Of a stretch of DNA of 36,417 nucleotides, positions 888 to 31,108 are shown one piece after another (the first letter of the stretch is position 1; each line of letters begins with the position of its first letter). The notes beneath the pieces were generated by a model. It saw nothing but the letters and a program-made list of their open reading frames with translations. It was not told where the DNA came from and ran no database searches. Source of the DNA: Candidatus Omnitrophota bacterium (lineage in GTDB: Bacteria; Omnitrophota; Gorgyraeia; Zapsychrales; Fredricksoniimonadaceae); NCBI GenBank assembly GCA_903901225.1, contig CAIUQE010000023.1, forward strand, positions 1-36,417, in the 5' to 3' direction. A program made the translations under genes and the position numbers.

Positions 888-1545
888 CCAGCTTCTTGTG
901 TCGCTGTGGCCTGACCTGGTGAAGGCGTTCGTCGAGACGGCACAGATGCTGGGGATATCGCTCTTTTTATCCATCGTAGTCGGCGTCCCGTTGGGTCTTT
1001 TTTTGTTCGTGACCGACCGCGGACTTTTCTGGGAGAATAAATTCCTGCACGGCCTGGGCGGGTTTTTGGTCAATGTCATCCGCTCGACACCATTCGTCAT
1101 TCTGCTGGTCCTGCTCTTGCCCTTGACGCAGCAGTTGATCGGCTCGACGATCGGCCCTGTTGCGGCGTCAGTGCCTTTGTCCGTCGCGGCGATCGTTTTC
1201 AACGCGCGGCTGGTGCAGGCGGCCCTGTGCGAGGTTGACCGCGGCGTGATCGAGGCGGCCACGGCGTTCGGCGCCACGCCCCTGCAGATCATCAGGGATG
1301 TCCTTCTGATCGAGGCGTTCCCCGGGCTTGTGCGCGGGGTCACGGTCACGGCCATCAGCCTGGTCGGCTATTCGGCCATGGCGGGTATTGTTGGCGGCGG
1401 CGGTGTGGGGGATCTTGCGATCCGTTACGGGTATTACCGTTACCAGACAGGCGTCATGGTCATCACCGTCGTGATCCTGATCGCGCTCGTGCAGGTCATC
1501 CAGGTGGCCGGTGACAAGGTCGCGGACAACGCGGATAAAAAGTAG
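880..1545 (+). CDS. metI: MetI, methionine ABC importer permease
   Basis: This is the inner-membrane channel subunit of the MetNIQ importer. Its 221 residues match the usual MetI length, with about five hydrophobic segments. The cytoplasmic coupling (EAA) loop reads VIEAATAFGATPLQIIRDVLL-like, and the MetI-typical GYSAMAGIVGGGGVGDLAIRYGY region follows. The start ATG overlaps the end of metN and is preceded by GGAGG at 869-873, which points to translational coupling. The gene is intact although metN is broken. Confidence 0.93.
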   Translation: MNSQLLVSLWPDLVKAFVETAQMLGISLFLSIVVGVPLGLFLFVTDRGLFWENKFLHGLGGFLVNVIRSTPFVILLVLLLPLTQQLIGSTIGPVAASVPLSVAAIVFNARLVQAALCEVDRGVIEAATAFGATPLQIIRDVLLIEAFPGLVRGVTVTAISLVGYSAMAGIVGGGGVGDLAIRYGYYRYQTGVMVITVVILIALVQVIQVAGDKVADNADKK

Positions 1546-1552
1546 AGGACTT

Positions 1553-2731: not shown

Positions 2732-2753
2732 CGCCAAAAGGAAAGGAATGGGT

Positions 2754-3811: not shown

Positions 3812-4037
3812 GAAATAATAGGATCAGAAATAATAGGGGAAGCAAGATATTCAGTAAGGAAGGGGGATCAATGGCAGGCAGGGAGCAACATTTTTCACCT
3901 AACAAACACGGGAGCACAATATGTCGCAAAAAAAGAATATTTCGGGAAGTTTTTCAGATCGGATAGCTGAATTTTTGAAACCATGGCTCAGCCAGGGAAA
4001 AAAGGCTGTGTCCAACAACAAAAAGGAGAAGGAAACC

Positions 4038-6766
<2,729 letters not shown>

Positions 6767-7466: not shown

Positions 7467-7521
7467 AGCGAATGTCCATCTGTTATGGCCAAAAAGATTG
7501 AGAGCCTTAAGTTCTCTTTGT

Positions 7522-7577
7522 TAGAACGGGGACATGTACCAAATTCGTCCTGTGAATTTGGTACGTGTCCCCGGATC
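7522..7577 (+). repeat. Palindromic repeat family 1, copy 4
   Basis: A nearly perfect hairpin with loop GTCCTGT ends seven bases before the preferred ATG of the binding-protein gene. It would be translated in frame if the upstream start at 7485 were used, which argues against that start. Confidence 0.9.
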
Positions 7578-7583
7578 TATTTG

Positions 7584-8405
7584 ATGATATTGATCTGCGG
7601 CATGTTACTGTTCCTGACTGGGCCTGCCCTGGCGCAAGACGGGCCGGTGGCGCGGATCATTTCCCTGGGGCCGGTGCTGACTGAGGAGATCTTTTTGCTC
7701 GGCGGGGAAGACCGTCTTGTGGGCGTGACCACCTATTGCCAGCGCCCCGCGGCAGCAAAACTGAAAGAGCGCGTTGGCAGTATCCAGGACATCAATATCG
7801 AGAAGGTAGTATCCCTCAAGCCTGATCTGGTGTTGGCTACGGTATTGACAGATCCTCGAGCCAAGGCAAAGTTGCGTGGCCTGGGGATACGGGTCGTGGA
7901 TGTGCCCAACGCCGTTGATTTCGACGGGGTTTGTGATGTTTTCACTTTGGTCGCGGGATTTCTCGGCAAGGAAAAGGAAGCTGCCGCGATCATTGCCGAC
8001 TCACGGCAAAAGGTCGCGGCGTTGCGCTCGAAGGTTAACACAGCGGCGCGGGTCCGTGTTTTTGTCGAGGTGGGGGTGAATCCTCTGGTCACCATCGGGC
8101 AGGGGGCTTTCGTGAATGACCTTATCACCCTTGCCGGCGGGGATAATATCGTCAGGGAACAGGGCTACCTGCAATATTCACGCGAGACCGTCCTTAAACG
8201 CGATCCTGATGTTATCCTGATATCGAGCATGGGGTTTGACGGGGCGCGGGAAAAAACGAACTGGGAGCGGTTCGGGTCACTGAAGGCGGTGGCCGACGGG
8301 AGGATCAACATCCTCGATGAATATTTATTGTGCAGCCCCACCCCGGTAAGTTTTGTGCAAACGCTTGTGGTGATCATGGGATTCCTGCATCCGGAGATCC
8401 GTTGA
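7584..8405 (+). CDS. BtuF-like periplasmic binding protein (cobalamin or siderophore)
   Basis: This TroA/BtuF-fold substrate-binding protein has about 273 residues. A short signal peptide (MILICGMLLFLTGPALAQ) is followed by RIISLGPVLTEEIFLLGGEDRLVGVTTYC and KPDLVLA, the usual N-lobe landmarks of cobalamin and Fe-siderophore binding proteins. ATG 7584 is chosen because it gives a clean signal peptide; the longer reading from 7485 translates a repeat. No good ribosome site is visible. The stop overlaps the permease start (TGATG). Cobalamin is plausible given methionine metabolism next door, but the ligand cannot be fixed by sequence reading. Confidence 0.82.
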   Translation: MILICGMLLFLTGPALAQDGPVARIISLGPVLTEEIFLLGGEDRLVGVTTYCQRPAAAKLKERVGSIQDINIEKVVSLKPDLVLATVLTDPRAKAKLRGLGIRVVDVPNAVDFDGVCDVFTLVAGFLGKEKEAAAIIADSRQKVAALRSKVNTAARVRVFVEVGVNPLVTIGQGAFVNDLITLAGGDNIVREQGYLQYSRETVLKRDPDVILISSMGFDGAREKTNWERFGSLKAVADGRINILDEYLLCSPTPVSFVQTLVVIMGFLHPEIR

Positions 8406-9409
8406 TGAAATATTGGCGCTGGGCTTTGTGGCTGGGGTTTTTGGGCGTGCTTCTCGCGGGGGCTGTGGTGTGGGCCTTGTCGGTGGGCGCTTCGGGGATA
8501 CCGGCGGGCAAGGTGGTCGGGATATTGTTCCACGGCGGCAGCCCGGTCGAGCACAGCATTGTTTTTGATATCCGCCTGCCGCGGATCATCCTCGGGTTCG
8601 CCATCGGCGGTTGTCTGAGCCTGGCCGGTGTGATGCTTCAGGGGCTTTTTCGTAATCCCCTCGTTGAGCCCTACACACTGGGCATTTCCGGCGGGGCCGC
8701 GCTGGGCGTGGCGGCCAACATCGCCTTGGGCCTTTCCGCTATCGGCGCGTATACCCTTCCCGCGTGCGGCCTGCTCGGCGCGGGCGGCGTGATCGTCTTC
8801 CTTTATTTCTCAAGCTTGCGGACAGGTCTTGTCAAATTGCAGGGGCTTCTCCTTAACGGCGTCATGATCAGTTTTATTTCATCGTCTTTGGTCATGTTGC
8901 TCATGTCCATCGCCAGCAGCGACAGCCTGCACGGGATCGTTTTCTGGATGATGGGCTCGCTCGGAGGTTCCGATCTTTCCCTGGTCAATTTCATGTTCTT
9001 CCTCGCGCTCGCGGCGTTGGCGGGGGGTTATTGTTTTTGCTTGCAGCTGAACGCGCTGGCGCTGGGCGAGGCCGAGGCGCGGCATCTCGGCGTCCCTGTC
9101 GAGTTGGTGAAGAAGGTGCTGTTCGTTTTTTGCGCGATTTTGACCGGCCTTTGTGTATCGATCGCCGGGATGATCGGTTTTGTGGGGCTGGTCGTGCCGC
9201 ACGTGACGCGCCGGCTGGTAGGCCCGGACCACCGGATATTGCTGGGAGCCTCGTTCCTGGCGGGGGCGGCCTTCCTGATCGCCAGCGACACCCTGGCGCG
9301 GGTCATTATCGCGCCGCTGGAGTTGCCCGTCGGTGTGATCACGGGGATCGCGGGCGGGAGCGTTTTTCTTTACGCGCTCTCGCGGCGGGGAGGGTTGAGC
9401 CATGCTTAA
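8405..9409 (+). CDS. BtuC/FecCD-type ABC permease
   Basis: This FecCD-family permease of 334 residues has about ten membrane segments. Family motifs are RLPRIILGFAIGGCLSLAGVMLQGLFRNPLVEP-like, GISGGAALGV, and GMIGFVGLVVPHVTRRLVGPDHR near the C-terminus, the region that contacts the ATPase. It dimerises to form the channel for cobalamin or ferric siderophores. It overlaps the BtuF-like gene by one base and the ATPase gene by eight, so the three form one transcription and translation unit. Confidence 0.9.
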   Translation: MKYWRWALWLGFLGVLLAGAVVWALSVGASGIPAGKVVGILFHGGSPVEHSIVFDIRLPRIILGFAIGGCLSLAGVMLQGLFRNPLVEPYTLGISGGAALGVAANIALGLSAIGAYTLPACGLLGAGGVIVFLYFSSLRTGLVKLQGLLLNGVMISFISSSLVMLLMSIASSDSLHGIVFWMMGSLGGSDLSLVNFMFFLALAALAGGYCFCLQLNALALGEAEARHLGVPVELVKKVLFVFCAILTGLCVSIAGMIGFVGLVVPHVTRRLVGPDHRILLGASFLAGAAFLIASDTLARVIIAPLELPVGVITGIAGGSVFLYALSRRGGLSHA

Positions 9410-10220
9410 GGTCCGTGATGTCACAGCCGGTTACGGGACAAAAGTCATTGTTGCGGGTGTCAGCTTTGAAGTTAAGGCCGGAGAGTTCTTCGGGTTGATC
9501 GGCCCCAACGGTTCGGGCAAGACGACATTGCTGCGCGCTTTCACGCGTGAGATCCCGTCCATGCGGGGCGAGATCATTATTGATGGACATAATATCCACA
9601 CTATCCCGCTGCGGACCTTCGCGCGCACCGTGGCGGTGGTGTCCCAGGTGACGCCGCTGGTCGACATGACGGTCGGCGAGTTTGTCCTGCTGGGGCGCCT
9701 GCCCTATTTTGAGAACCTGCAGTTCATTGAGTCGCGACATGACCGCGATATCGCGGATAAGTGCATGAAGTTGACGGATTCGTACCGTTTCAGGAATAAG
9801 CCCGTCGACAAATTGAGCGGCGGCGAACGCCAGCTGGCGGGGATCGCCCGCGCGCTGGCCCAGGAGCCGCGGTTGTTGCTCCTGGATGAGCCGACCGCTC
9901 ATCTGGATATCACGCACCAGGTGGCGATCATGGATCTTCTTCGCAAGCTCGTCAGGGAAATGAATTTGACCGTGGTGATGGTGTTGCATGACCTTAACCT
10001 GGCCAGTGAATATTGCGACCGCGTCGCGCTGCTCAGCGAGGGGGGGATCTTCAAGGCCGGAACGCCCGCGCAGGTCATTGATTACAAGGTCATCGAGGAG
10101 ATTTACAAGACCGTCGTTGTGGTGAACAAGAATCCGATCTCAGGCAAACCGTATGTGCTGATCGTGCCTGAGGATGAGATGTTAAAGAGCCGCGGGATGG
10201 ATCTTCCGACGGGGAATTAA
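9402..10220 (+). CDS. BtuD/FepC-type ABC ATPase
   Basis: This 272-residue ATPase powers the importer encoded just upstream. Walker A is GPNGSGKTT, the Q-loop is VVSQVT, the signature is LSGGERQL, Walker B is LLLLDEPTAHLD and the switch His is in VLHDLN. After about residue 210 a C-terminal tail follows, typical of this group. The ATG overlaps the permease stop. Downstream AT-rich spacer leads directly into the promoter of leader B. Confidence 0.9.
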   Translation: MLKVRDVTAGYGTKVIVAGVSFEVKAGEFFGLIGPNGSGKTTLLRAFTREIPSMRGEIIIDGHNIHTIPLRTFARTVAVVSQVTPLVDMTVGEFVLLGRLPYFENLQFIESRHDRDIADKCMKLTDSYRFRNKPVDKLSGGERQLAGIARALAQEPRLLLLDEPTAHLDITHQVAIMDLLRKLVREMNLTVVMVLHDLNLASEYCDRVALLSEGGIFKAGTPAQVIDYKVIEEIYKTVVVVNKNPISGKPYVLIVPEDEMLKSRGMDLPTGN

Positions 10221-10736: not shown

Positions 10737-12140
10737 ATGAGAGCTTTATTGGTTTCCGGGTTGGTCGTAGCAAGTTTATTGTTGTTGGTACCTGTCTCAA
10801 GGGCGCAGGGGCTGGATGTGGATGCCTTGAGAAAGGAACTGCAGGAACTGCGGGACGAGGTGAAAGGATTAAAGGATGAACTGAAGGTTGTGAAGGAGCA
10901 AAAGCAGGCGTCATCTGTCGCGTCTTCTTCCGGTGCCGCGCAGGGTGGCGTTACCCGGGATGAATTAGCGGGTGTGCGTGGTGAGGTTGAAACACTGCGC
11001 GATGACTGGAAACGCAGCTTTGAGCGCAACACAGCCCAGGCCAGCCGCGCGCTTTCTTTAAGCGGACTTGTCCAGACGCGTTTCAGCACCAAGGACGACG
11101 GCGCTAACAGCACCAACGGGTTCTCGATCCCTTTGCTTCAACTCGGCTTTTCGGGCAGTTTGAAGAAGGATTATGAGGATGGCAAGAACCTTGATTACCT
11201 GGTGAGCTTGTATAGCAATACCACAGCGGATTCGTATCGTGTCGCGCCGCAGGACGTGTACATCAATTATAACGTCCTTTCGACGCTTGACGCTGAATCG
11301 CCCAGGCTGTCCATTACGACCGGTCAGCAGAAAAAGCCGTTCGGGCGTGATCCCCAGACCACGGAAGAGTACAAGCCGACCATCAGCCTGGCGCAGTTTG
11401 ATTCAAATCTTGGCTTGAGCACAAGGGATATAGGCGTTGTGGTGAAAGGCGATCTTTTGCCCATCAATGATTACGGGTACAATTACCGCGTCCCGCTGGT
11501 CGAATATTCTCTCGGTGTGCTCAACGGGGCCGGGCAGAATATCGCTGACAATAACAAATCAAAAGATTACGTTGGCCGGCTGGTGCTTAACGCGCCGGTG
11601 GATTACAACTCGGTATTCCGTGGTTTATCCATAGGTGGTTCCGTTTATGAAGGTCAACAGCCCCGCACCGCCACACTTTCCGGGGTGTCCGTCATACGCG
11701 GCCAGGGCGCGAAAGAAAGGCTCGGGGCGGATATCGGCTATGTGCGTACGCCCATCGGGTTCACGGCGGAATATGCGCAGGGTTACGACGAGATCCTTGG
11801 CGGGACTTCTTCAGTTCCCACGGAGCGCAGCATCAGGAGCCACGGCTACGCCGGCACTGTTTTCTATAACTTCGGCCAGCAGTTCCTCAAGGCGTCCAGG
11901 ACGCAAAGCCGTTACGACGACTGGTTTCCCCGGACGTATCAGCCGTTCATCCGTTATGACCACTGGGATCCGAACACCAATGTTTCCAATGACGCATCGG
12001 ATGTTTACACACTGGGTTTCAACTGGTTCTTTGCCCAGACAACGAAGTTGCAGTTGAACTATAACATCAAACAAACGCGCTCGGCTGCCAATGCACCGGA
12101 CAGTAATGAATTACTGGCGCAATTCCAATATGGATTCTGA
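10737..12140 (+). CDS. Outer-membrane porin with N-terminal coiled coil
   Basis: This 467-residue protein has a signal peptide ending near VSRAQG and a coiled coil at about residues 25-100 (heptads such as LRKELQELRDEVKGLKDELK). The rest is a beta-barrel region rich in alternating aromatic strands, ending in Phe, the usual outer-membrane insertion signal. The layout resembles OprO/OprP-type porins; the coiled coil could anchor or trimerise the protein in the periplasm. AGGAGGAG precedes the ATG. As the first gene after attenuator B it probably admits the compound that the following binding protein captures. Confidence 0.8.
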   Translation: MRALLVSGLVVASLLLLVPVSRAQGLDVDALRKELQELRDEVKGLKDELKVVKEQKQASSVASSSGAAQGGVTRDELAGVRGEVETLRDDWKRSFERNTAQASRALSLSGLVQTRFSTKDDGANSTNGFSIPLLQLGFSGSLKKDYEDGKNLDYLVSLYSNTTADSYRVAPQDVYINYNVLSTLDAESPRLSITTGQQKKPFGRDPQTTEEYKPTISLAQFDSNLGLSTRDIGVVVKGDLLPINDYGYNYRVPLVEYSLGVLNGAGQNIADNNKSKDYVGRLVLNAPVDYNSVFRGLSIGGSVYEGQQPRTATLSGVSVIRGQGAKERLGADIGYVRTPIGFTAEYAQGYDEILGGTSSVPTERSIRSHGYAGTVFYNFGQQFLKASRTQSRYDDWFPRTYQPFIRYDHWDPNTNVSNDASDVYTLGFNWFFAQTTKLQLNYNIKQTRSAANAPDSNELLAQFQYGF

Positions 12141-12161: not shown

Positions 12162-13238
12162 ATGAAAAGGTTATGGAGTGTCGTATTCGGAGTTTTGTTC
12201 CTGAGTGTTGCCGTAGCACCATCAGCCACAGCGGCTGACGCAAAAAAACCGGCCGTGATCCGCATCGGCACCGCGTTCACCGCGGGCAACAGCCGCCCGT
12301 TCTCGCTGCAGACGATCGGTGTGCTTCACCAGCAGGGCCTTCTTGAAGAGGAATTCAAGAAGGACGGGATCAAGATCGAGTGGGTGTTCTTCAAAGGCGT
12401 GAGTCCTGCCGTGAACGAAGCGTTCGCCAATGACACGATCGATATCGGGGCCACGAGCGAACTGGGCGCCATTATCGCCAAGGCGGGCGGGCTCAAGATC
12501 AAGCTGATCGCCAGCGGCGGTACGCGCGGCAATTCCTACCTGGCGGTACCCATTGATTCCCAGGCGACAAAAGTGGAGGACCTCAAGGGGGCGAAGCTGG
12601 CGACAAGCAATGCCACGAATTTCCAGCTGGCGTTTGAACGCATCCTGCAGTTGAAGGGCCTGACGCACAAGGATTTCAAGGCCTATAACCTCGGGCCGGC
12701 GGATGGTGTCGCGGCGCTCGCCTCCAAGGATATCAACGGGGCGGTTTACGGGACCCAGCTTTTCGCGCCCCGTCGTCTTGGACTGGTCAAGATCATCTAT
12801 TCGACGCGGGATGATTTCCCGGATAAGTGGAAATCTTTCAGTGGTATTTTCGTGACGGAGAAGTTCGCTAAGGATCATCCTGATCTTACGGAGCGTTTCC
12901 TGAAGGTGTTCGCGCGGGCCGCCAAGTGGGCGTCGGATGAGAATAACCGCGAGGCGTATTTCCTGGGTCAGGCCAAGACCGGGACGTCGGTGAATGATAT
13001 TCGCGAGGACGCCGAAGGCACGCCCTTGAGCGTTAAGAACACCCCCTTGCTTGATGACTTTGTCGTTGGGCATTTCCGGGATACGATCCAGTTCGCCCTT
13101 GAGCGCGGGTTGATCCGCAAGGCGTACGATGTTAACAGTCTCGTTGACGCGTCATTCCTGGAAGCGGCGTTGAAGGATGAGGGGCTGGACCATTTCTGGG
13201 CCAAGTATGATGGAGAAGGCAAGGAAACAACGAAATAA
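12162..13238 (+). CDS. SsuA/TauA-like periplasmic binding protein
   Basis: This NitT/TauT-family solute-binding protein of 358 residues has a signal peptide ending near ATAADA. Family features are IRIGTAFTAGNSRP, GVLHQQGLLEEEF, FFKGVSPAVNEAFANDTIDIGATSE, and VEDLKGAKLAT. These proteins bind sulfonates, taurine, nitrate or similar anions and pass them to SsuBC-type transporters, which are encoded at 17003-20537. The ligand is unknown; a sulfonate, sulfinate or related organosulfur compound is inferred from the desulfinase downstream. AAGGAG precedes the start. Confidence 0.87.
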   Translation: MKRLWSVVFGVLFLSVAVAPSATAADAKKPAVIRIGTAFTAGNSRPFSLQTIGVLHQQGLLEEEFKKDGIKIEWVFFKGVSPAVNEAFANDTIDIGATSELGAIIAKAGGLKIKLIASGGTRGNSYLAVPIDSQATKVEDLKGAKLATSNATNFQLAFERILQLKGLTHKDFKAYNLGPADGVAALASKDINGAVYGTQLFAPRRLGLVKIIYSTRDDFPDKWKSFSGIFVTEKFAKDHPDLTERFLKVFARAAKWASDENNREAYFLGQAKTGTSVNDIREDAEGTPLSVKNTPLLDDFVVGHFRDTIQFALERGLIRKAYDVNSLVDASFLEAALKDEGLDHFWAKYDGEGKETTK

Positions 13239-13264: not shown

Positions 13265-14041
13265 ATGAGCGCATTATTAACACAAGACATCAATTATGAC
13301 GCGATCAAGGATCCGCAGGTCGTGACGCTTCTCAAAGGGTTAAAACACCGGCGTTTCAACGCGTATTACGCGCCGGACGCGGAAACCGCCCGCAAGATCG
13401 TCCTGGAATTAGTCCCGGCGGATGTGAAGATCGGCACCGGGGATTCGACCTCGGCGACACAGCTGGGGATAGCGGATGCCCTGAAAGAAAGAGGCAATGT
13501 TGTTTACGACGCCCACAGGCGGGGTAATACGTGGGAAGAAACACATCGGGCCAGCGCGCTTTCCTACAGTTCCGATTGCCGTTACTTCCTGACGGGCACC
13601 AACGCGGTGACCCAGGATGGCCGGCTGGTGAATGTTGACGCGGTCGGCAACCGCGTCGGTGGCATGTTTTACGGCCATGAGCATTCGGTCCTGATCATTA
13701 GCCGTAACAAGATCGTCAAGGACCTCGACGCGGCGTTCCACAGGATCCGGACGCAGATATCGCCCCAGCACGTGAAGATCCGCAGCACGGATCTTGGCGG
13801 CCGGCCGTTCAAAACGGGATGCGTCAAGACGGGTGTTTGCGTGGATTGTCAGGGAGAGGATCGCACTTGCAATGTGTTCACGGTCATTGAAGGCAAGCCC
13901 AAGCGGACAACGGTCCATGTCGTAGTCGTTGACCTTGACATCGGGCTGGGCTGGGACCCGTCGTGGCCCCAGGAACGGATCCAGAAGATCATTGACGGGT
14001 ACAAGTCACTGGTCTGGATCCCGCCGCAACTGAAGAACTGA
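13265..14041 (+). CDS. LUD-domain protein with C-terminal cysteine cluster
   Basis: This 258-residue protein resembles the LUD (DUF162) domain of lactate-utilisation proteins: KIGTGDSTSATQLGI, RRGNTWEETHRASALSYSSDCRYFLTGTNAVTQDGRLVNVDAVGNRVGGM-like core, and HEHSVLIISRNKIVKDL. After residue 180 come four cysteines (GCVKTGVCVDCQG...TCNV) that could hold an Fe-S cluster or zinc. LUD proteins in lactate operons help oxidise 2-hydroxy acids, but stand-alone members are uncharacterised. It has no signal peptide. The terminator after it separates it from the next gene. Confidence 0.78.
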   Translation: MSALLTQDINYDAIKDPQVVTLLKGLKHRRFNAYYAPDAETARKIVLELVPADVKIGTGDSTSATQLGIADALKERGNVVYDAHRRGNTWEETHRASALSYSSDCRYFLTGTNAVTQDGRLVNVDAVGNRVGGMFYGHEHSVLIISRNKIVKDLDAAFHRIRTQISPQHVKIRSTDLGGRPFKTGCVKTGVCVDCQGEDRTCNVFTVIEGKPKRTTVHVVVVDLDIGLGWDPSWPQERIQKIIDGYKSLVWIPPQLKN

Positions 14042-14129: not shown

Positions 14130-15380
14130 ATGGCCGTTGAGCGTTTGCTGGAAATAGACAGGCTGGGGCGTAAATATCCGGATGTGCCAAGATTCATTAT
14201 CCTCAAGCTTGACCTGCTGCGTCGCGGGGCGCGTTTGACCGCCCGGGCTTTGGATGCGGTGCAGAATGACGCGTACCGTTTTGGCCCGATGCTCATTTTC
14301 TTCAAAGGGGGCGGCAGCAAGAAGACTGACCGTTCCAATCCCGGGTCCATGCTCCTGCGTGATGGCACGACCGCGCCGGTGTCGTTCGAGGAGTATTTTG
14401 AAGATCCTTACCGGGTGGACTATCAGGGTGGGAAGTTCATCCTTTACGACGGGCGCGCGCGGGTGGACGAAGTGGATTTCACGCCGCGCCCTAAATATTA
14501 CGGCCATCTCACCACGAGCGGCATCCCCATGGAATCGATCGCCAGCGCCCGCGCCCAGCGGTTGATCATTTGCGCGTACCGGCATTGCCATCTTTGGGAC
14601 ACGGGCGACCAGTGCAAATACTGCGCGTTCTTTACCGACCTGAAAGCGTCGCGTCCGGCCTTTGACACGCCGCTGCGCCGGGGCGTGAACCCGGAAGATA
14701 TTTATGAGACGGTGCGCGAAGTGCTCAAGGAGCCGGGGCGCATCTCCGAGATCTACCTCACCGCGGGCATGGATTACCGCGGAGAGCATTTCTTTGATGA
14801 GGAAGTGGAGCGGTATATCCGTATCCTGCAGGCGATCGGCCGGAATTTCAAGGGCCGCTTCTCCAGCCAGATCATGGCGCCTGCGTATTCCAAAGCCCAG
14901 TTGACCCGGCTTTACCGCGAAACGGGGTTGACATCATATTGTCCCAATATTGAGGTCTGGGACGAGCGTTTGTTCGGGTGGATCTGCCCGGGAAAAAATA
15001 AATGGCCGGGGCGCAAGGAGTGGATCAAACGGACGCTGGATGCCGTCGATATTTTCGGCAAGGGCAATGTTTACACGCAGGTTGTCGCCGGAGTGGAGCT
15101 GGCCAGGCCCCACGGGTTCAAGACGGTTGACGCGGCATTGCGTTCCAATCTTGAAGCGTGCGAATTTTTCGCCAAACGCGGCGTTATCTTTTTGAGCACC
15201 GTCTGGAGGATGAATCCCGCCTCCGCTTTGGCCGGGCAGAAGAATCCGCCGCTGGAATATATTATCCGGTTGTCGAAAGGCCTTTATGACATACGCAAAG
15301 CGTACGGCCTCAGTTCGGATAATGACGATTATAAACACTGCGGCAATCACGCTGACGCGGACCTGGAAAGGATCGACTGA
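14130..15380 (+). CDS. Radical-SAM family enzyme with unusual cysteine spacing
   Basis: This 416-residue protein holds C148-x4-C153-x8-C162-x2-C165 (ICAYRHCHLWDTGDQCKYCAF). The final CX2C fits a radical-SAM [4Fe-4S] site, but the canonical CX3CX2C is replaced by CX8CX2C, recalling the CX9CX2C of Elp3. Downstream features agree with a radical-SAM barrel: ISEIYLTAGMDY, SSQIMAPAYS, YCPNIEVWDERLF, and GNVYTQVVAGVELARPHG. About 145 residues precede the cluster. Such enzymes cleave SAM to start radical chemistry; a C-S bond cleavage would fit the cluster, but that is inference. The substrate is unknown. Confidence 0.75.
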   Translation: MAVERLLEIDRLGRKYPDVPRFIILKLDLLRRGARLTARALDAVQNDAYRFGPMLIFFKGGGSKKTDRSNPGSMLLRDGTTAPVSFEEYFEDPYRVDYQGGKFILYDGRARVDEVDFTPRPKYYGHLTTSGIPMESIASARAQRLIICAYRHCHLWDTGDQCKYCAFFTDLKASRPAFDTPLRRGVNPEDIYETVREVLKEPGRISEIYLTAGMDYRGEHFFDEEVERYIRILQAIGRNFKGRFSSQIMAPAYSKAQLTRLYRETGLTSYCPNIEVWDERLFGWICPGKNKWPGRKEWIKRTLDAVDIFGKGNVYTQVVAGVELARPHGFKTVDAALRSNLEACEFFAKRGVIFLSTVWRMNPASALAGQKNPPLEYIIRLSKGLYDIRKAYGLSSDNDDYKHCGNHADADLERID

Positions 15381-15382
15381 GT

Positions 15383-15880
15383 ATGGGGCACGATCATAAA
15401 ACAGCGGCGCTCGCGTCGGGCGTTGTGGCTTTGTTGAAGGACAGGAAGGCCGTGAAGGTCGTAGGGTCTTTGAACGCGGATGGCTCTCCATACATAGAGG
15501 TCAATGATGCTTTGACAACGCTTGATGCCTCGACATTGATCCTGCCGGAGGAACTGGAGAAATCGGCCGGGAACAGGAACCTGGTGCGCAGCATCTGGTT
15601 TGACAAGCCCGTGACGTTCCACGTGGGGCGCGGCGATGAGGCGTACTACATTCAGGCTAAAGTTTACCGGTGTTTGATCGCGGGCAAACTGTTCGAGCAG
15701 ATGCTCCTGCGCAAAAGGGCCGAAGAGGGGGCGGACGCTGACATTTCGGTCGTATGGGAATTTATTCCTGTTTCGGTCGAGGAGGTGACGGTGAAGGTCC
15801 TGAGAAAAGAACAGGAAGCGCGGCATCCGTATTTTGACAGGCATTTGGATCGGGCAAGCATAAAGACCGGAAGTAATTAA
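15383..15880 (+). CDS. PNPOx-like FMN-binding protein
   Basis: This 165-residue protein has the split-barrel pattern of pyridoxamine-phosphate-oxidase-like flavoproteins: VVALLKDRKAVKVVGSLNADGSPYIEV, then SIWFDKPVTFHV and YYIQAKVYRCLIAGKLFE. Relatives are flavin reductases or flavin- and heme-handling proteins. It starts two bases after the radical-SAM stop, so the two are probably co-translated; it may supply reduced flavin or electrons to its neighbours. Exact chemistry is not visible. Confidence 0.72.
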   Translation: MGHDHKTAALASGVVALLKDRKAVKVVGSLNADGSPYIEVNDALTTLDASTLILPEELEKSAGNRNLVRSIWFDKPVTFHVGRGDEAYYIQAKVYRCLIAGKLFEQMLLRKRAEEGADADISVVWEFIPVSVEEVTVKVLRKEQEARHPYFDRHLDRASIKTGSN

Positions 15881-15893
15881 AAGGAGGCTTACC

Positions 15894-16982
15894 ATGAGTG
15901 CGATCGCGAAAAGATCAAAGAAAGTCAGCAAGGCGAAGACGGGCAAGAGATCAAAAGAGATATTCTATACCATTTGCCCCGTGCAGGTGGCGTCGCATGT
16001 GGCCGTCGAAAAAGGCTGGCTGGATGAGGCGTTTAAAAAGGTGGGCGCCACAGCGCGTTTCCTGCGCGCCTTACCCAAGGACCAGTGGCTGCCGCATTTC
16101 ACGCACCGGCGCCCCGAGCTTTTCCGCGACGGGGGGAACATTCCTCCTATCTGGGCCAGGTCGGAAGGTGTTGACACAAAATTGATCGGGCTGACCTTTG
16201 CCGGCACGGGCGGCAAGATCGTCGTCAAGGTTGGTTCAGGCATCCGTTCGATCCAGGACCTCAGAGGTAAAAAGATAGGGCTTTCACTGCGTCGCACCAA
16301 AGACCGGGTGGATTTCGCGCGCGCCACGGCGCATCGCAGCATCCTTCTGGCGCTGGGTTATGCCGGCCTCAGTGAGCGTGATGTCCAGCTGGTCGACATC
16401 CCTGAATTCGAGGCCAAAGAGGGGGATCCTTCCTGGTCGGTGCTTTCTTCGGCGGAGACTCCGGTGGAATTCTGGGGCAAGGGAAAATTGAAGTCGGTGG
16501 CCTGGAATGACGGGAAGGCGTTGCTCGACGGGACGGTGGACGCGGTTTTCTCAGGGCACGGACGTTCCGCCAAACTCGAATCGGAAGGCCTGGTGACCAC
16601 CATTGAAGACCTGGGCCGTTATCCCGACTGGACAACGCAGGTGGCCAATACGCCGACCGCGATCACGGTCAATACCGAGCTGGCCAAGAGCCATCCCGAG
16701 ATCGTTGTGGCCTGGCTCAAGGCGTCGATCAAGGCCGGGCAGTGGATCCGCAAGAATCCCGAAGCGGCGGCGGAGATCCTGGCGGAAGTTACCATTTATG
16801 GATGCTTCCATCATTTGGTCCGGGACCTCGCGACGTACAATTATGTGCCGAACCTGTCCGGGAAAAGCCTGGGCGGCATTGAGGTGGAAAAGAACTTCCT
16901 GTTGGAGCACGGGTATATCAAGAACGATTTCGACGTGCGCGCGTGGGCGGATGACAGTTTCTTAAAACAAGCCCTTAAATAA
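15894..16982 (+). CDS. DszB-like desulfinase (SsuA-fold, cytoplasmic)
   Basis: This 362-residue protein has the NitT/TauT binding-protein fold but no signal peptide; the N-terminus is a lysine-rich cytoplasmic tail. It strongly recalls DszB, the 2-(2-hydroxyphenyl)benzenesulfinate desulfinase of Rhodococcus. Cys28 in YTICPVQ, His68 in HFTHRRP and Arg78 in FRDGGNIPP match DszB Cys27, His60 and Arg70, with the RxGG motif and the same 10-residue His-Arg spacing. The end, ARGWADD-like SFLKQALK, also resembles DszB. DszB releases sulfite from an aryl sulfinate. The true substrate here is unknown. AAGGAGG precedes the ATG. An alternative is a cytoplasmic sensor derived from a binding protein. Confidence 0.78.
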   Translation: MSAIAKRSKKVSKAKTGKRSKEIFYTICPVQVASHVAVEKGWLDEAFKKVGATARFLRALPKDQWLPHFTHRRPELFRDGGNIPPIWARSEGVDTKLIGLTFAGTGGKIVVKVGSGIRSIQDLRGKKIGLSLRRTKDRVDFARATAHRSILLALGYAGLSERDVQLVDIPEFEAKEGDPSWSVLSSAETPVEFWGKGKLKSVAWNDGKALLDGTVDAVFSGHGRSAKLESEGLVTTIEDLGRYPDWTTQVANTPTAITVNTELAKSHPEIVVAWLKASIKAGQWIRKNPEAAAEILAEVTIYGCFHHLVRDLATYNYVPNLSGKSLGGIEVEKNFLLEHGYIKNDFDVRAWADDSFLKQALK

Positions 16983-17002: not shown

Positions 17003-18946
17003 ATGAGTCTCGCTTACAAATTCCTCGCCAAGTTCCTGTTCCTGTCTTTTTTCAGCGGGATATTTGTCGGGATGTCGGCGATCGTCATCAACCTTTACGC
17101 GGTGCACATGGATGCCGGCGCCGCGCAGATCGGGCTTATCACCGGCATGCAGGGGTTCGGGGTGCTCATCACCGGCATCCCGTTCGGCATCCTGATAGAC
17201 CGCTACGGGGCCAAGGTCGTGTATGTCCTCGGCGGGTTGATCGGCTCGACAGTGTTCCTGTTCGTGCCGATGGCGAACACCCCCTGGACGCTGCTGGCGG
17301 TCACTTTCCTGGTCGGGCTGTTCGCTTCGATGCGCTATGTGTCGATGAACAGTATCTTTTTCGAGCACCTGGAGCTTATCGGCAACAACAAGGCCGGATG
17401 GTATAAAGGCGCCCAGTCCGCCGGTATGGTATTCATCGGGCCTGTCCTGGGGATATTCCTGGTCAACCATATCGGCTTCCGGTTCACGTTCTATACGATC
17501 GGGATGTGGATCCTCGTGACCGCGGTCATCGCGCAGCTTATCCTGACCCAGCGCGAGATCGAACGGGAACTGGAAGCATTCACCTGGCTGGGGACCGTCC
17601 ATCAGTTGAAAAGCCTCCTGAAGAACAGGCTGCTGGTCACGACATCGGTCGTGGAATTCGCGGCCCTGAGCGCGAATGCCTGTTTTTCCGGGTTCATCAT
17701 CGCGATCGCGCTGCGCGTGTTCCATCTGCCGAAAGAGAGCGCGGCGCTGTTCATATCGTCGCAGGGCGTGGTGTTCGTGATCACGGTCTTTTCGCTCAAC
17801 GCCTGGGTGTCCAGGCTCGGCGAGAGGTACTGGTACATGACCGCCCTGGGGATCATCATATCCGGGCTGCTGTTCCTGGGCCTGGCCGCGGTGCCGTTGC
17901 AGTTGTGGGCCGGCGCTGTCCTGCTGGGCGTGGGGCTGGGGATGATCAACATTGTCAACGTGTCGCGGATAGCGCGCAGCGGCCACAAGAAAGGCAAGGT
18001 CGCCGGGTTCTTTTCGCTCTTTAGCATGGGCGGCGGGATCGCGGGGCCGGTGATCGGCGGTTTCATCGGTACGGTTTATGGCTTGCAGGCGACCTATCTT
18101 TGCCTGATCCCTGTTTTTCTGGCGCTGGGATTATATTTGAAATTAAAGGTCACGGGACGAAAATGGCTGTCCGCCTGGACCGTGAAGATCAGGGATTCCC
18201 TGTTAGGCTTTATCCTTCCCATCGGCCTGTTGGCGCTTTGGGAGTTCGTCACGCGCTTTGGCCTGGCGCCGAGGGAGCTTTTGGTGCCGCCGCAGGACGT
18301 GTGGGCAAGTTTCTGCGAGTTTGTCAAAGACGGCACGCTACTCGAGAATCTTGGCGTCAGCCTGACGCGGATATTCTTCGGTTTTTCCTGGGGAGCGGCG
18401 GCGGGAGTTATTTTCGGGATAGCCATGGGTTATTCACGCCAGGTTGAACGGTACGTGGGCCCGCTCTTTCACGCGTTCCGCCAGGTGCCGATGTTCGGGT
18501 GGATGCCGTTCCTGATCCTGCTGACGGGCATCGACGAGACCTTCAAGATCATTTTTGTGGGATTGACCGCTTTTATCCCGATGGTCCTTAATACATATGA
18601 GGGCGTCAGGAATATTCCCGGCGAGTACCTGGAGGTGGCCAGGGTGTTCGCGTACGGGCGTCGCCGGCTTTTCTGGCGGGTCATTATCCCGGGCGCCATG
18701 CCCGCGATATTCACGGGCGTGCGCACAAGCCTGAGCATGGCGTGGATGTCGGTGGTCGGGGCGGAACTGGTGGCGGCGAGCTCCGGGATCGGCAATTTGA
18801 TGGCGGGCGCGCGCAACATGTTCAGGTACGATATCGTATTTGTCGGCGTGATCGTTATCGGTCTTGTTGGGTTTGCCATGAATTCCATCGCGGCCATGCT
18901 GGAAGCCCATGTCCTGCGCTGGCGTAAAACATTTGTTGAGAAATGA
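17003..18946 (+). CDS. Fusion of MFS transporter and SsuC-type ABC permease
   Basis: One uninterrupted 647-residue frame holds two transporters. Residues 1 to about 385 are an MFS carrier with roughly 12 membrane segments and the loop GILIDRYGAKVVYVLGG between segments 2 and 3. Residues about 390-647 are an SsuC-type permease with the coupling loop EYLEVARVFAYGRRRLFWRVIIPGAMPAIFTG and the start ILPIGLLALWEFV. The second half should pair with the SsuC-like protein encoded next and the ATPase at 19758. I know of no described MFS-ABC permease fusion; a start codon at the junction or a misassembly is not evident. The MFS part may export a product or take an alternative substrate. Confidence 0.85.
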   Translation: MSLAYKFLAKFLFLSFFSGIFVGMSAIVINLYAVHMDAGAAQIGLITGMQGFGVLITGIPFGILIDRYGAKVVYVLGGLIGSTVFLFVPMANTPWTLLAVTFLVGLFASMRYVSMNSIFFEHLELIGNNKAGWYKGAQSAGMVFIGPVLGIFLVNHIGFRFTFYTIGMWILVTAVIAQLILTQREIERELEAFTWLGTVHQLKSLLKNRLLVTTSVVEFAALSANACFSGFIIAIALRVFHLPKESAALFISSQGVVFVITVFSLNAWVSRLGERYWYMTALGIIISGLLFLGLAAVPLQLWAGAVLLGVGLGMINIVNVSRIARSGHKKGKVAGFFSLFSMGGGIAGPVIGGFIGTVYGLQATYLCLIPVFLALGLYLKLKVTGRKWLSAWTVKIRDSLLGFILPIGLLALWEFVTRFGLAPRELLVPPQDVWASFCEFVKDGTLLENLGVSLTRIFFGFSWGAAAGVIFGIAMGYSRQVERYVGPLFHAFRQVPMFGWMPFLILLTGIDETFKIIFVGLTAFIPMVLNTYEGVRNIPGEYLEVARVFAYGRRRLFWRVIIPGAMPAIFTGVRTSLSMAWMSVVGAELVAASSGIGNLMAGARNMFRYDIVFVGVIVIGLVGFAMNSIAAMLEAHVLRWRKTFVEK

Positions 18947-18949: not shown

Positions 18950-19729
18950 ATGCCCGGAAAAAATAAATTCTTATGGAGGGATCTTTGGGCCGGCCTGGCC
19001 CTTCCGCTGGGGCTGCTCGCGGCCTGGAAACTGGTGTCCGCCGCCGGGTGGGTGAACGCGTCCCTATTGCCGTCGCCGGAAAAGGTCCTGAAGGTCATTG
19101 GAGATTCGCTGGCGGACGGGTTCCTTGTGAAGAACCTTTTGATCAGTTTCAACCGGGTGATCAAAGGGTTCCTTGCCGGTTCCACCATAGGCTTTGTCCT
19201 GGGAACATGGATGGGGCTGTCGAAGACGGCTGAAAAGGTATTTGGCCCGTTCTTTCACGCCATCCGCAATGTGCCCTTGGTGGGATGGGTGCCGCTGTTC
19301 ATCATCTGGTTCGGTTTCGGGGAGTTTTCGCAGGTCGTTTTTATTTCCGTGGGGGCGTTCTATCCGGTCGTCCTCAACACGTTGCAGGGTATCCGCGGCG
19401 TCCGACGTGAGTATGTCGAACTGGGGCGGGTGTTCGGTTTCAGCCGGTTGAAGGTTTTCACGAGGATCATCCTTCCGGCCGCGATCCCGTCGGTGTTCAC
19501 CGGCGTGCGCCTGAGCCTGAGCATTTCGTGGATGCTGGTCGTGGCCGCCGAACTTTTTGGCGTTTCGACCGGCGGGGTGGGTAACATGATGATGGACGCG
19601 CGGGAATTTTTCAAGATGGACATCGTGATCATGGGCATACTGACGATCGGGGTTGTCGGGTTCATCATGAACCAGCTGCTGGCAATGATCGAAGGGCATT
19701 TCTTATCCTGGAAGCGGAAAGCCGCGTAA
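18950..19729 (+). CDS. SsuC/TauC-type ABC permease
   Basis: This 259-residue inner-membrane permease has about six hydrophobic segments, the family opening NASLLPSPEKVLKVI, and the coupling loop EYVELGRVFGFSRLKVFTRIILPAAIPSVFTGVRLSLSISW-like. It starts three bases after the fusion gene and is a close relative of that protein's C-terminal half, so a heterodimeric channel (this protein plus the fused permease) is likely. Substrate is probably a sulfonate-like anion. Confidence 0.9.
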   Translation: MPGKNKFLWRDLWAGLALPLGLLAAWKLVSAAGWVNASLLPSPEKVLKVIGDSLADGFLVKNLLISFNRVIKGFLAGSTIGFVLGTWMGLSKTAEKVFGPFFHAIRNVPLVGWVPLFIIWFGFGEFSQVVFISVGAFYPVVLNTLQGIRGVRREYVELGRVFGFSRLKVFTRIILPAAIPSVFTGVRLSLSISWMLVVAAELFGVSTGGVGNMMMDAREFFKMDIVIMGILTIGVVGFIMNQLLAMIEGHFLSWKRKAA

Positions 19730-19757
19730 GGACAATGGTATTTTTGGGGAGTTGTAT

Positions 19758-20537
19758 ATGACAGAAGCGGGGAAATTATATATTCGCGCGTTGAACAAGA
19801 AGTTCAACGTGGACGCGAAGGAGATATCGGTCCTGGAGGACATCAACCTGACGGTCGAGGGGGGGGAGTTCATCAGCATCATCGGCACGAGCGGTTGCGG
19901 GAAGACGACATTGCTGAAACTTATTGTCGGGTTGGGTGGGGCGTATGACGGCGATATTATCCTTAACGGGCAAAGGGTCGATGGCCCCGGCCTCGAGCGT
20001 GGCATTGTGTTTCAGGATCACCGCCTGCTGCCCTGGCTTACCGTCAGTGAGAATATCGGCTTCGGGCTTGATGCCAAAATCAAGAAAGCCGAGCGCCAGG
20101 AGATCATCCGCAAGCATATCCAGCTGATCGGCCTGAGGGGTTTTGAGAAAGCTTACCCGTACCAGTTGTCCGGCGGGATGGCCCAGCGCGCCGCGATCGC
20201 GCGGTCTTTGGTGAACCGCCCGGCGATCCTGATGCTCGATGAGCCGTTGGGGGCGCTCGATGCTTTGACGCGCATGTATATGCAAAGGGAACTGGAAAAG
20301 ATATGGAAAGAGGAGCGGATCGCCATGATCATGGTCACGCATGACGTCGAAGAGGCGATCTACCTGGCGGACAAGGTCGTGGTCATGTCCAGCCGGCCCG
20401 GCAGGATCAAGAAGGTCATCCCTGTCGGTTTATCGCGCCCGCGCGACCGGGATAGTTATGAGTTTATTCGGATCAAGGACGAGATCCTGAAAGAATTCCA
20501 TCTGGAAGCGGAGAAATATTTTTCCTATTCGATCTAG
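19758..20537 (+). CDS. SsuB/TauB-type ABC ATPase
   Basis: This ATPase of about 259 residues drives the importer. Walker A is GTSGCGKTT, the Q-loop is VFQDHRLLPWLTVSENIGFGL, the signature is LSGGMAQRAAIARSL, Walker B is LMLDEPLGALD and the switch His is in MVTHDVEEAI. QDHRLLPW is typical of nitrate/sulfonate/taurine transporters. I chose ATG 19758, six bases after GGGGAG; a TTG at 19752 is also in frame. The stop at 20535-20537 is followed directly by the MFS reading frame. Confidence 0.92.
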   Translation: MTEAGKLYIRALNKKFNVDAKEISVLEDINLTVEGGEFISIIGTSGCGKTTLLKLIVGLGGAYDGDIILNGQRVDGPGLERGIVFQDHRLLPWLTVSENIGFGLDAKIKKAERQEIIRKHIQLIGLRGFEKAYPYQLSGGMAQRAAIARSLVNRPAILMLDEPLGALDALTRMYMQRELEKIWKEERIAMIMVTHDVEEAIYLADKVVVMSSRPGRIKKVIPVGLSRPRDRDSYEFIRIKDEILKEFHLEAEKYFSYSI

Positions 20538-20631: not shown

Positions 20632-21816
20632 ATGCAGAAGGTGGCGGAGCAGTGGCTGGTCTATCGCCTGACGGGTTCGGTCCTCATGCTGGGGCTGGTC
20701 GGGTTCCTGGGCCAGATCCCCACCTTCGTCCTCGCGCCGTTCGCCGGGGTCGTGGCGGACAGGCACGACCGCCGCAAGCTCCTGCTTGTGATCCAGGCGT
20801 TCGCCATGTTCCAGGCCATAGCCTTGTCGGCGCTGGTGCTGTCCCATACCATCCAGATATGGCATATCATGGCCCTGAGTTTTATTCTCGGTGTTGTTAA
20901 CGCATTCGATATTCCCATCCGCCAGTCATTCACCATCGAAATGGTCGAAGCCAATGACGGCAGGGACCTGGGCAACGCGATCGCCATGAATTCATCGATG
21001 ATCAACATGGCGAAGCTGGTGGGCCCCTCGGTCGCGGGCATCCTCATCGTCCTGGTCGGAGAGGGGCTGTGCTTTCTATTGAATGCCATCAGTTATCTGG
21101 CTGTCATAGCGTCCCTTCTGGCCATGAATATGAGGCCCCGCGCGGCTGTTGTCGTCGAAAAGCATATTTTCCATGACCTTAAGGAGGGCCTGGATTATTC
21201 CCTCAAGTTCGGGCCGATAAAATATATCCTGTTCATCCTGGCCGTGAACAGTCTCATGGGCCATCCGTATATGGTATTGATGCCTGTGTTCGCGAGGAAG
21301 GTGTTGCATGGCGGGCCGCATACCTTGGGGTTCCTGATGGGCAGCGCCGGCACCGGCGCCTTGATCGGGGCGTTTTACCTGGCGAGCCGGGATTCTGTCC
21401 GTGGGCTGATCGGCCGTATCTGGACAGCGTCGCTCTTGTTCGGCATCGCGCTCATCGGCTTTTCATTTTCTACCGTCTTGTGGTTGTCCATGGCGCTGCT
21501 CATGCTGGCCGGCTTTGGCATGATGGTCCAGATGGCGGCAAGCAATACGATCCTGCAGACGATCGTCGACGGGCGGATGCGCGGGCGGGTGATGAGTTTT
21601 TACACGATGTCGTTGATGGGCATGACGCCTTTTGGCAGCCTGTTCGGGGGGTGCGTGGCGGACAGGATCGGCGCGCCGCGCACGCTGCTCATCGGCGGCG
21701 TGGCGTGCATGGGGGCGGCATTGTTCTTCTGGCGTAAAATGCCCGTGATCAAGGAAAAGATACGGCCGGTCTATATTGAGAAGGGGATACTCTCCGACGG
21801 GGAAGCCGCGGCCTGA
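20632..21816 (+). CDS. MFS transporter (EntS/MFS_3-like), true start upstream and non-ATG
   Basis: This is a major-facilitator carrier of at least 394 residues with the loop GVVADRHDRRKLLLV and about 11-12 membrane segments. ATG 20632 is the first ATG, but convincing MFS sequence continues upstream in the same frame: FDPRQVFAALGHRNYRLFFTGQGISLIGTW, starting at about 20542, so the protein probably begins near 20527-20545. That stretch offers no ATG, GTG or TTG, only ATT at 20527 or CTG at 20569. Use of a rare start coupled to the ATPase stop, or a small frameshift, is likely. It may export a product of organosulfur breakdown such as sulfite, or a toxic remnant; that is only a guess. Confidence 0.82.
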   Translation: MQKVAEQWLVYRLTGSVLMLGLVGFLGQIPTFVLAPFAGVVADRHDRRKLLLVIQAFAMFQAIALSALVLSHTIQIWHIMALSFILGVVNAFDIPIRQSFTIEMVEANDGRDLGNAIAMNSSMINMAKLVGPSVAGILIVLVGEGLCFLLNAISYLAVIASLLAMNMRPRAAVVVEKHIFHDLKEGLDYSLKFGPIKYILFILAVNSLMGHPYMVLMPVFARKVLHGGPHTLGFLMGSAGTGALIGAFYLASRDSVRGLIGRIWTASLLFGIALIGFSFSTVLWLSMALLMLAGFGMMVQMAASNTILQTIVDGRMRGRVMSFYTMSLMGMTPFGSLFGGCVADRIGAPRTLLIGGVACMGAALFFWRKMPVIKEKIRPVYIEKGILSDGEAAA

Positions 21817-29146: not shown

Positions 29147-29722
29147 ATGGCACGTATACCGCTGGTCCGTTATGAGGACGCATCGCCTGAGATCCAGGCC
29201 GAATATAAAAAGGTGGTTGAGAAACACGGGGACGTTTCGAACATGAAGGCGACACTTCTGCATTCGCCGGTGGCGTTGCATGCTGTTCTGGAGTGGTACA
29301 CGCTTTACGAGAAGGTCAAGCCGGTCCTGGGCAATCGCCGCACGATCCTGTTCTGTGACGCTATTTCCCGCGAGAACGCTTGCACGTTGTGCGCGACGTA
29401 CATGAACCGGGCGATCGTCAAGGGCGGGGAGAAGCCCGGGGAGTTGAAACTCGATGAACAGGACCAGGCCGTGATCGCGTTCGGCCAACAGCTGGCGGCC
29501 AATCCCAACCGCGTTACCGATACGCTTTTCAAGAAACTACAGGCGTTCCTGACGCCCGCCCAGATCGTCGATCTGACCGTGTTCGGCGCCATGATGATCG
29601 TCAATAACGTGTTCAACAGTGCGTTGCAGGTGGACCTGGATGAATCGCTCGATGCGTACCAGATCCAGCCGGAAGTCGCTTTCGCAGGGTCATCGCACTA
29701 CACAGGCAAGGAGGCCATATGA
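29147..29722 (+). CDS. AhpD/carboxymuconolactone decarboxylase-like protein
   Basis: This 191-residue helical protein of the AhpD-like fold has the redox pair CTLC in ISRENACTLCATYMNR, which matches the CxxC of AhpD, but the usual His three residues later is not there. AhpD reduces peroxiredoxin AhpC; other members are peroxidases of unknown partner. The ATG at 29147 follows AAGGAGAG; an upstream GTG at 29117 lies inside a repeat and is rejected. The end overlaps metY2 (ATGA at 29719). Its role next to a sulfhydrylase could be thiol or persulfide redox protection. Confidence 0.8.
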   Translation: MARIPLVRYEDASPEIQAEYKKVVEKHGDVSNMKATLLHSPVALHAVLEWYTLYEKVKPVLGNRRTILFCDAISRENACTLCATYMNRAIVKGGEKPGELKLDEQDQAVIAFGQQLAANPNRVTDTLFKKLQAFLTPAQIVDLTVFGAMMIVNNVFNSALQVDLDESLDAYQIQPEVAFAGSSHYTGKEAI

Positions 29723-31032
29723 GCGAAAGAAAATTACATTTTGATACGTTGCAAGTTCACGCGGGCCAGGTGCCTGATCCCACGACCGGCGCGCGGGCTG
29801 TGCCGATCTACCAGACCACCTCGTTCGTGTTCAAGAATTTCGAGCAGGCGCGCCTGATCAGTTCCGTCGAGGAGTTCGGTTTTGATTACAGCCGCATCAC
29901 CAATCCCACGTGCGAAGTGCTGGAGAACCGTATCGCGGCGTTGGAAGGTGGTTCGGGTGCTTTGGCGCTCGCCTCGGGTTCGGCGGCCACGGCCTATTCG
30001 ATCCTGAACATCACGCACACGGGGGACGAGATCGTCGCCGCGAAAACGCTTTACGGCGGGAGTTTCAACCTGTTCGTGAACACGTTCCCCAAGCACGGCA
30101 TCAAGACCCGGCTGGTCGACCCGGGTGATCCGGAGAATTTCCGCAAGGCGATCAATGACCGCACGCGTGCCATTTTCATTGAAACGATCGGTAATCCTGA
30201 TATCAACATCATCGATTTCGAGAAAGTGGCCCACATCGCGGCGGAGAACGGTATCCCGCTGATCGTCGACAACACCTTCGGCACGCCATACCTTTTTCGT
30301 CCGTTTGATTACGGCGCTAACATCATCGTTCACTCGGCGACGAAATATATCGGCGGCCACGGCACGAGCATCGGCGGGTTGATCGTGGATGGCGGTAATT
30401 TTGATTGGTCCAAGAGCGGCAAGTTCCCGGATTTTACGACACCTGATCCGGCGTACAGCGGGTTTGTCCACTGGGACCGCTGGGGTAATTATCCCGGCGT
30501 CGGCAATATCGCCTACATCATCAAGGTGCGCTTGCATTACCTGCGCGATTTTGGCGCGTGCATGAGCCCGTTCAACGCGTTCCTGTTCCTTCAGGGGATC
30601 GAGACGCTGTCGTTCCGCCTTGAGCGCCAGGTGGCGAGTGCCCAGCGCATCGCGGAATATCTGGCGTCGCATCCCGAGGTCGAGTGGGTCAATTATCCGG
30701 GGCTGAAAACAAGCCCGTATCACGCCCTGGCGAAGAAGTATCTTCCCAAGGGGCCGGGCGCGATCCTGGCCTTCGGGGTCAAGGGCGGGTTTGAGCGCGC
30801 GAAGAAGTTCATCGAGAGCATGAAGGTTTTTTCGTTCCTCGCCAACGTGGGGGATTCCAAGTCGCTGGTGGTGCATCCGGCGACGGTCACGCACGGGCAG
30901 TTGACCGAGGCCGAACAGCGTCTCGCCGGGGTCAAGCCCGAGCAGATCCGGTTCTCGATCGGCACGGAAAATATTGATGACCTGCTCTGGGATATCGGCC
31001 AGGCATTTGAAAGATCTACTATTAAGAAATAA
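29719..31032 (+). CDS. metY: O-acetylhomoserine sulfhydrylase (MetY), copy 2
   Basis: This paralogue of the 4038 gene has 437 residues: [39 protein letters not shown], and PLP lysine in HSATKYIGGHGTSIGG. It adds sulfide, or perhaps methanethiol, to O-acetylhomoserine. The start overlaps the AhpD-like gene and is translationally coupled to it. Differences from copy 1 around the active site (SGSAATAYS against SGQSAITLS) could mean a different thiol donor. Two copies under two attenuators of the same type suggest separate conditions of use. Confidence 0.93.
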   Translation: MSERKLHFDTLQVHAGQVPDPTTGARAVPIYQTTSFVFKNFEQARLISSVEEFGFDYSRITNPTCEVLENRIAALEGGSGALALASGSAATAYSILNITHTGDEIVAAKTLYGGSFNLFVNTFPKHGIKTRLVDPGDPENFRKAINDRTRAIFIETIGNPDINIIDFEKVAHIAAENGIPLIVDNTFGTPYLFRPFDYGANIIVHSATKYIGGHGTSIGGLIVDGGNFDWSKSGKFPDFTTPDPAYSGFVHWDRWGNYPGVGNIAYIIKVRLHYLRDFGACMSPFNAFLFLQGIETLSFRLERQVASAQRIAEYLASHPEVEWVNYPGLKTSPYHALAKKYLPKGPGAILAFGVKGGFERAKKFIESMKVFSFLANVGDSKSLVVHPATVTHGQLTEAEQRLAGVKPEQIRFSIGTENIDDLLWDIGQAFERSTIKK

Positions 31033-31045: not shown

Positions 31046-31100
31046 AAAGCGGGGACATGTACCAAATTCGCCCTTTGAATTTGGTACGTGCCCCCGGATC
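31046..31100 (+). repeat. Palindromic repeat family 1, copy 6
   Basis: A nearly perfect copy (loop GCCCTTT; right arm ends GTGCCCCCGGATC) between metY2 and the giant gene; it ends nine bases before the latter's ATG. Confidence 0.92.
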
Positions 31101-31108
31101 GAATAATT

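Follow-up and report, generated by a model that had tools for sequence, protein, structure and literature searches.

An MFS carrier joined to an ABC permease in one reading frame within a probable organosulfur-scavenging gene cluster of Omnitrophota

A single gene (17003–18946, + strand) of a Candidatus Omnitrophota bacterium encodes a major facilitator superfamily (MFS) carrier followed by a NitT/TauT/SsuC-type ABC permease; it lies on contig CAIUQE010000023.1, of which positions 1 to 36,417 were analysed (the window). The fusion of the two transporters is real, and both domains are full length. We read it as a true fusion in an organosulfur-scavenging operon, where an ABC importer would have a tethered MFS partner that most likely exports a product, a reading to which we give about an even chance. 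Substrate class, direction of MFS transport, coupling and assembly of the complex are what we infer beyond the gene itself.

Frame, domains and topology of the fused protein

The ORF list with translations gives 17003–18946 as one open frame from ATG to TGA with 647 codons for amino acids. Two Pfam domains score above their curated cut-offs in the product: MFS_1 (PF07690; 115 bits against a cut-off of 33.4, E 4.6e-33, best stretch residues 12–317) and BPD_transp_1 (PF00528; 91.3 bits against 26.4, E 8.4e-26, residues 468–637). The first-pass annotation had described a frame running without a break from a full MFS domain into a full SsuC-type permease and had proposed this domain search, and its description holds. 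Of the genome's 8 matches to MFS_1 and 11 to BPD_transp_1, this is the only pair that falls in a single ORF.

A hydropathy scan predicted 18 helices, 12 of them within residues 1–379 and the other 6 from residue 399 on. The gene was divided into an MFS half (residues 1–379; 17003–18139, +), a linker (residues 380–398; 18140–18196, +) and a permease half, BPD1, with the 6 later helices (18197–18946, +). The linker has 19 residues between helix 12 (361–379) and helix 13 (399–417), and is predicted to be cytoplasmic because it carries 6 K/R; the protein as a whole has 37 K/R on the cytoplasmic side versus 9 outside, with the N-terminus taken as inside. Both halves are predicted to be N-in/C-in with the MFS ends cytoplasmic, in agreement with the positive-inside pattern. 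The helix method is crude and found 17 instead of 18 helices in a 91%-identical fusion from a second species (see below); the same method gave 12 helices each for the MFS homologues of Burkholderia and of the split relative G170. The permease half was also claimed to have its own coupling loop, and that region (about residues 541–567) is present and mostly conserved in the alignment, but Ala550 stands where the free permease of the operon has the loop glycine and G170 permease 1 has Glu; glycine is the usual residue of the EAA coupling-loop motif at this position. AlphaFold run with four sequences reached a mean pLDDT of 32 and gave no usable model of the fused protein, so assembly is judged from homology only.

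A fused orthologue, a split relative and the distribution of the fusion

The same fused frame, equal in length, 91% identical over residues 1–647 and free of stops, occurs in a second species (G005; locus L005, contig CAIOTT010000065.1, from a Candidatus Omnitrophica MAG) of the same genus. The first-pass annotation had asked for the same fusion in orthologues, with the concern that orthologues might always be split and a local stop lost here by error; the frame of this orthologue is fused and intact. The fusion is not a sequencing error because a second species has an intact fused frame with no stops. Loss of a stop codon through sequencing or assembly error, for which we found nothing in favour, is exceedingly improbable given that the second MAG, from another species, was assembled separately, and was rejected unless both assemblies carry the same error.

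Between the window and the second species the fused gene has pS 0.44, pN 0.046 and dN/dS 0.073 (NG86), with dN/dS 0.069 for the MFS half and 0.062 for the permease half. The fused gene is under purifying selection. At the junction (residues 376–405) dN/dS is 0.141, and over the 18 residues 383–400 it is 0.33, a value resting on 13 differences. The possibility that the MFS half has lost transport activity and serves the permease as scaffold or regulator, for instance as an anchor in the membrane that sets the stoichiometry or detects substrate, would fit the observation that transporters often carry fused regulatory domains (PMC10710835), but is improbable in our judgement: the full set of 12 helices is predicted, dN/dS is about as low in the MFS half as in the permease half, and stand-alone MFS relatives suggest an active carrier.

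Internal re-initiation yielding two proteins was rejected, as the linker has no in-frame ATG, GTG or TTG shared by the two species, the sole shared one within the compared residues 356–425 being TTG361 inside MFS helix 12; where the window has GTG394, the second species has GCC. An out-of-frame ATG lies behind AAAGG in the linker region (18163–18165), where the second species has GTG, and could be a relic of a once-separate permease start.

The split form was found, among 384 genomes sampled from the phylum, in G170, which belongs to the same class and another family. Its operon runs porin, substrate-binding protein, radical SAM protein plus small protein (this pair twice), FMN_red-type protein, MFS, permease 1, permease 2 and ATPase, and downstream of the ATPase are genes that start, by eye, like cysteine synthase and SAM synthetase. 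The G170 MFS has 388 amino acids and its stop is 55 nt from the start of permease 1. Identity to the window is 37–38% for MFS, 52% for permease 1, 54% for permease 2 and 73% for the ATPase; the fused permease is 52% identical to permease 1 versus 48% to permease 2, and the free permease 54% to permease 2 versus 49% to permease 1. Because G170 has the same order with MFS and permease 1 separate, the fusion is, judged by gene order, a lineage-specific joining of neighbouring genes in one operon. The reported joining of carrier and permease is real, then, but not as it had been stated, being a local union of operon neighbours. The slot ahead of the G170 MFS is occupied by the FMN_red-type protein; no DszB-like match was found in the G170 genome at E 1e-5, so the MFS does not need the DszB-like enzyme encoded next to it in the window, and the G170 stretch examined had no LUD match. 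Its tandem radical SAM and small (PNPOx-like) pairs occupy L035:5356–8990; the second radical SAM protein is 64% identical to that of the window and the first 38%.

These comparisons bear on whether the joining matters. A neutral operon fusion, whose halves act as the split proteins do and whose joining adds nothing, would be compatible with any transport role; the G170 operon lacks the fusion and only two species carry it, whereas the fusion has been kept over a pS of 0.44 with the linker frame intact. The latter rules out an accident of very recent date but is compatible with neutrality, which we consider a substantial possibility, somewhat short of even.

In a family search with the full-length fused query, 2 of 32 genomes matched at E 1e-30, namely the window's own and the second species; the same-genus genomes G003 (64% complete), G004 (96%) and G006 (94%) gave no match. 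The gene island is patchy within the genus, though G003 is just 64% complete. Across the phylum 48 of 384 genomes matched the full-length query at E 1e-15, and both halves fell in one frame only in the window's own genome (G000), scoring being limited to three candidates per genome; of 128 genomes in the order to which G170 belongs, 1 matched. MFS-domain matches were few (2/384 phylum, 2/81 order and 3/364 class genomes, in overlapping sets), one of those in the class being G498 (23% identity), where the 3.8 kb locus held no match to cluster genes besides the two MFS queries. The radical SAM marker matched in 2 of the 384 phylum genomes. The full-length query matched 1,635 of 72,556 records of a plasmid collection, none of which covered 80% of it. 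A wide family was rejected for this phylum, given the few MFS-domain matches. We conclude that the fusion is rare and narrow, found in two MAGs only.

The gene cluster and its DszB-like gene

The cluster lies on the + strand and is headed by an outer-membrane porin (Porin_O_P; 10737–12140) conserved in the second species and in G170. It continues with an SsuA/NMT1-type substrate-binding protein identified by profile match (12162–13238; its hydrophobic N-terminus resembles a signal peptide by eye), a LUD-domain protein (13265–14041; Pfam), a radical SAM protein (14130–15380; NCBIfam variant_rSAM, above cut-off), a small protein without Pfam match (15383–15880; its G170 homologue matches PNPOx_N weakly, below cut-off) and the DszB-like protein (15894–16982; no obvious signal peptide by eye). 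Past the fused gene come the separate second permease BPD2 (18950–19729; 259 aa, 44% identical to BPD1), an ABC ATPase (19758–20537; ATG start set by comparison with the second species, the ORF list giving TTG at 19752) and a second, separate MFS gene of the MFS_3 family (20632–21816; Pfam), which is conserved in the second species and found no match in the G170 stretch examined. The operon holds the ATPase, the substrate-binding protein and the second permease expected of a NitT/TauT-type ABC importer. Since the SsuC-type BPD2 gene begins 3 nt after the fused-gene stop, the natural reading is that the permease half would pair with it in a heterodimer with one extra 12-helix unit; the adjacency behind the original proposal of such a heterodimer is observed, and the pairing itself is what homology would predict.

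Both permeases match the SsuC, TauC, NtrB and SaoP profiles of NCBIfam, with SaoP, SsuC and TauC nearest and all below cut-off. For the SsuC equivalog NF008470 the fused permease scored 159.9 and the free permease 176 against a cut-off of 347 bits, and for the SaoP equivalog NF040733 the scores were 171.3 and 197.7 against 295 bits. The substrate-binding protein is nearest the SsuA family and below its cut-off (TIGR01728; 124.3 bits, cut-off 163.5), as is the DszB-like protein at 86.2 bits. The NCBIfam MFS profiles nearest to the MFS half are efflux types (MdtG and others), all far below cut-off.

The best PDB match of the product of 15894–16982 is DszB, 2-hydroxybiphenyl-2-sulfinate desulfinase (E 5.1e-14). 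In the alignment, the active-site residues C27, H60 and R70 of DszB correspond to its C28, H68 and R78. No DszA/DszC-type gene was recognised among the proteins scanned. Together with the organosulfur context, the DszB-like gene is the best clue to function, and desulfinase activity is predicted for its product; the first-pass annotation had noted neither the gene nor this context. DszB acts on a sulfinate and splits off sulfite, the remaining carbon skeleton being the end product (PMC8557817).

With the MFS domain alone as query, 2 of the 72,556 plasmid records matched, both from Burkholderia. In both replicons a stand-alone MFS gene lies directly 3' of a DszB-like gene, and the two ORFs overlap as called mechanically. 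The Burkholderia MFS lies between the DszB-like gene and a TonB-dependent receptor, with ExbB upstream. The wider stretch of B. cenocepacia contains ExbB, the TonB-dependent receptor and a divergent set composed of a substrate-binding protein, two permeases and a further DszB-like gene; for B. arboris only ~13 kb was taken in. ORFs with GC3 of 0.8 or less were left out of a first pass over the Burkholderia stretches and included in a second look. Within the 16 kb of B. cenocepacia examined, we recognised no ABC ATPase bearing a classical P-loop. A gene beside the Burkholderia permeases was considered as a possible ATPase and rejected, being a sigma-54 activator. In two phyla this MFS branch is accompanied by SsuA/SsuC-type genes; it stands alone in Burkholderia and G170, and it adjoins a DszB-like gene in Burkholderia and in the genus with the fusion.

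Several other loci were recorded. On Rhizobium leguminosarum plasmid NZ_CP030763.1 (L045), a DszB-like gene 40% identical to that of the window is surrounded by genes for 2-hydroxyacyl-CoA dehydratase and activase, and genes for rhodanese and sulfate permease lie nearby. Ahead of its organosulfur cluster the window has a MetN/MetI/MetQ-like set (135–3563, named by eye) and a BtuF/BtuC/BtuD-like set (7485–10220, by eye; Peripla_BP_2 in 7485–8405). It also has two sulfhydrylase-like PLP genes (3921–5330 and 29719–31032, named by eye) and a 1348-aa frame (31088–35134) whose sole Pfam match is a Cys/Met-metabolism PLP domain at residues 550–870. A palindrome-like repeat of 65 nt (GGGGACATGTACCAAATTCG...GAATTTGGTACGTGTCCCC) occurs in 7 copies (3754, 5340, 6768, 7520, 29072, 31043 and 35135), mostly between genes or at gene ends, and looks like a REP/MITE-type element.

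Proposed function and known systems

The probable role of the gene cluster is the scavenging of organic sulfur. A compound resembling a sulfonate or sulfinate would enter through the porin of the operon, and the permease half, paired with the second permease, the ATPase and the SsuA-like substrate-binding protein, would form a NitT/TauT-type ABC importer for it. The DszB-like enzyme, or an equivalent reaction, would then desulfurate the compound. The MFS half would be the partner carrier of the pathway, most likely exporting the desulfurated carbon skeleton (or excess sulfite). Fusion would fix one MFS unit per ABC complex, the two N-in/C-in halves being connected by the short cytoplasmic linker. 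The efflux types among the nearest MFS profiles hint at export, yet all lie far below cut-off. Several points count against this reading: substrate and direction are not readable from sequence; G170 has no DszB-like match and an FMN_red-type protein precedes its MFS; the 16 kb of Burkholderia yielded no recognised classical P-loop ABC ATPase; Ala550 occupies the coupling-loop glycine position; the fusion is seen in two MAGs only; and the AlphaFold mean pLDDT was 32. The position of the Burkholderia MFS next to ExbB and a TonB-dependent receptor would suit an importer as well. The MFS half might accordingly bring in the same or a related organosulfur compound, making a dual-mode importer that is ATP-driven if substrate is scarce and ion-driven if it is plentiful, and the arrangement with ExbB upstream and the MFS between DszB-like gene and receptor is that of an uptake-type operon. 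We regard this as doubtful, as the nearest MFS profiles, though far below cut-off, are efflux types and uptake is already covered by the ABC importer at the locus.

Transporters are usually divided into primary (ATP-driven) and secondary (gradient-driven) ones, and the two are handled as distinct classes. With both present in one conserved chain, the fusion offers, by the Rosetta-stone argument, a direct way to test for an importer-carrier complex in split systems. It also links an MFS branch that is still uncharacterised with SsuA/SsuC-type and DszB-like genes across two phyla, a lead that can be tested for how organosulfur compounds are taken up and their products released. Extending the preferred exporter reading, a coupled exchanger may be imagined, with ATP-driven organosulfur uptake through the permease pair while the attached MFS expels the desulfurated product from one complex; we consider this rather unlikely, and if true it would place primary and secondary transport in one polypeptide.

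Willson et al. 2019 is reportedly a dedicated survey of MFS fusions. The MFS fusion partners described include CBS, cyclic-nucleotide-binding, PAS and UspA domains (PMC10710835) and a sensor kinase (PMC3924187). No published MFS-ABC permease fusion was recognised in searches of the open-licence literature, which bears out the first-pass view of an undescribed architecture to that extent, although absence from print is not thereby established. Consistent with that literature, both component families are known and it is their joining that would be new.

Compared with DszB, the upstream gene has it as best PDB match and conserves the C27/H60/R70 positions, but the match is distant and the gene shares its ABC operon with genes for radical SAM and LUD proteins. 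The SsuABC, TauABC and NrtABCD-CmpABCD systems share with the window permeases that match their family profiles and an SsuA-type substrate-binding protein, and the relatives found for the fused protein among solved structures were CmpB and a nitrate transport permease; the window differs in scores below the equivalog cut-offs and in two different permeases, one with an N-terminal MFS carrier. The MFS drug-efflux-like branch resembles the MFS half in the above-cut-off MFS_1 match and the 12 predicted helices, whereas the C-terminal partner in the window is an ABC permease. The split operon of G170 has the same gene order as the window, and differs in its separate MFS and permease 1, in a genome without DszB-like match and in a stretch without LUD match.
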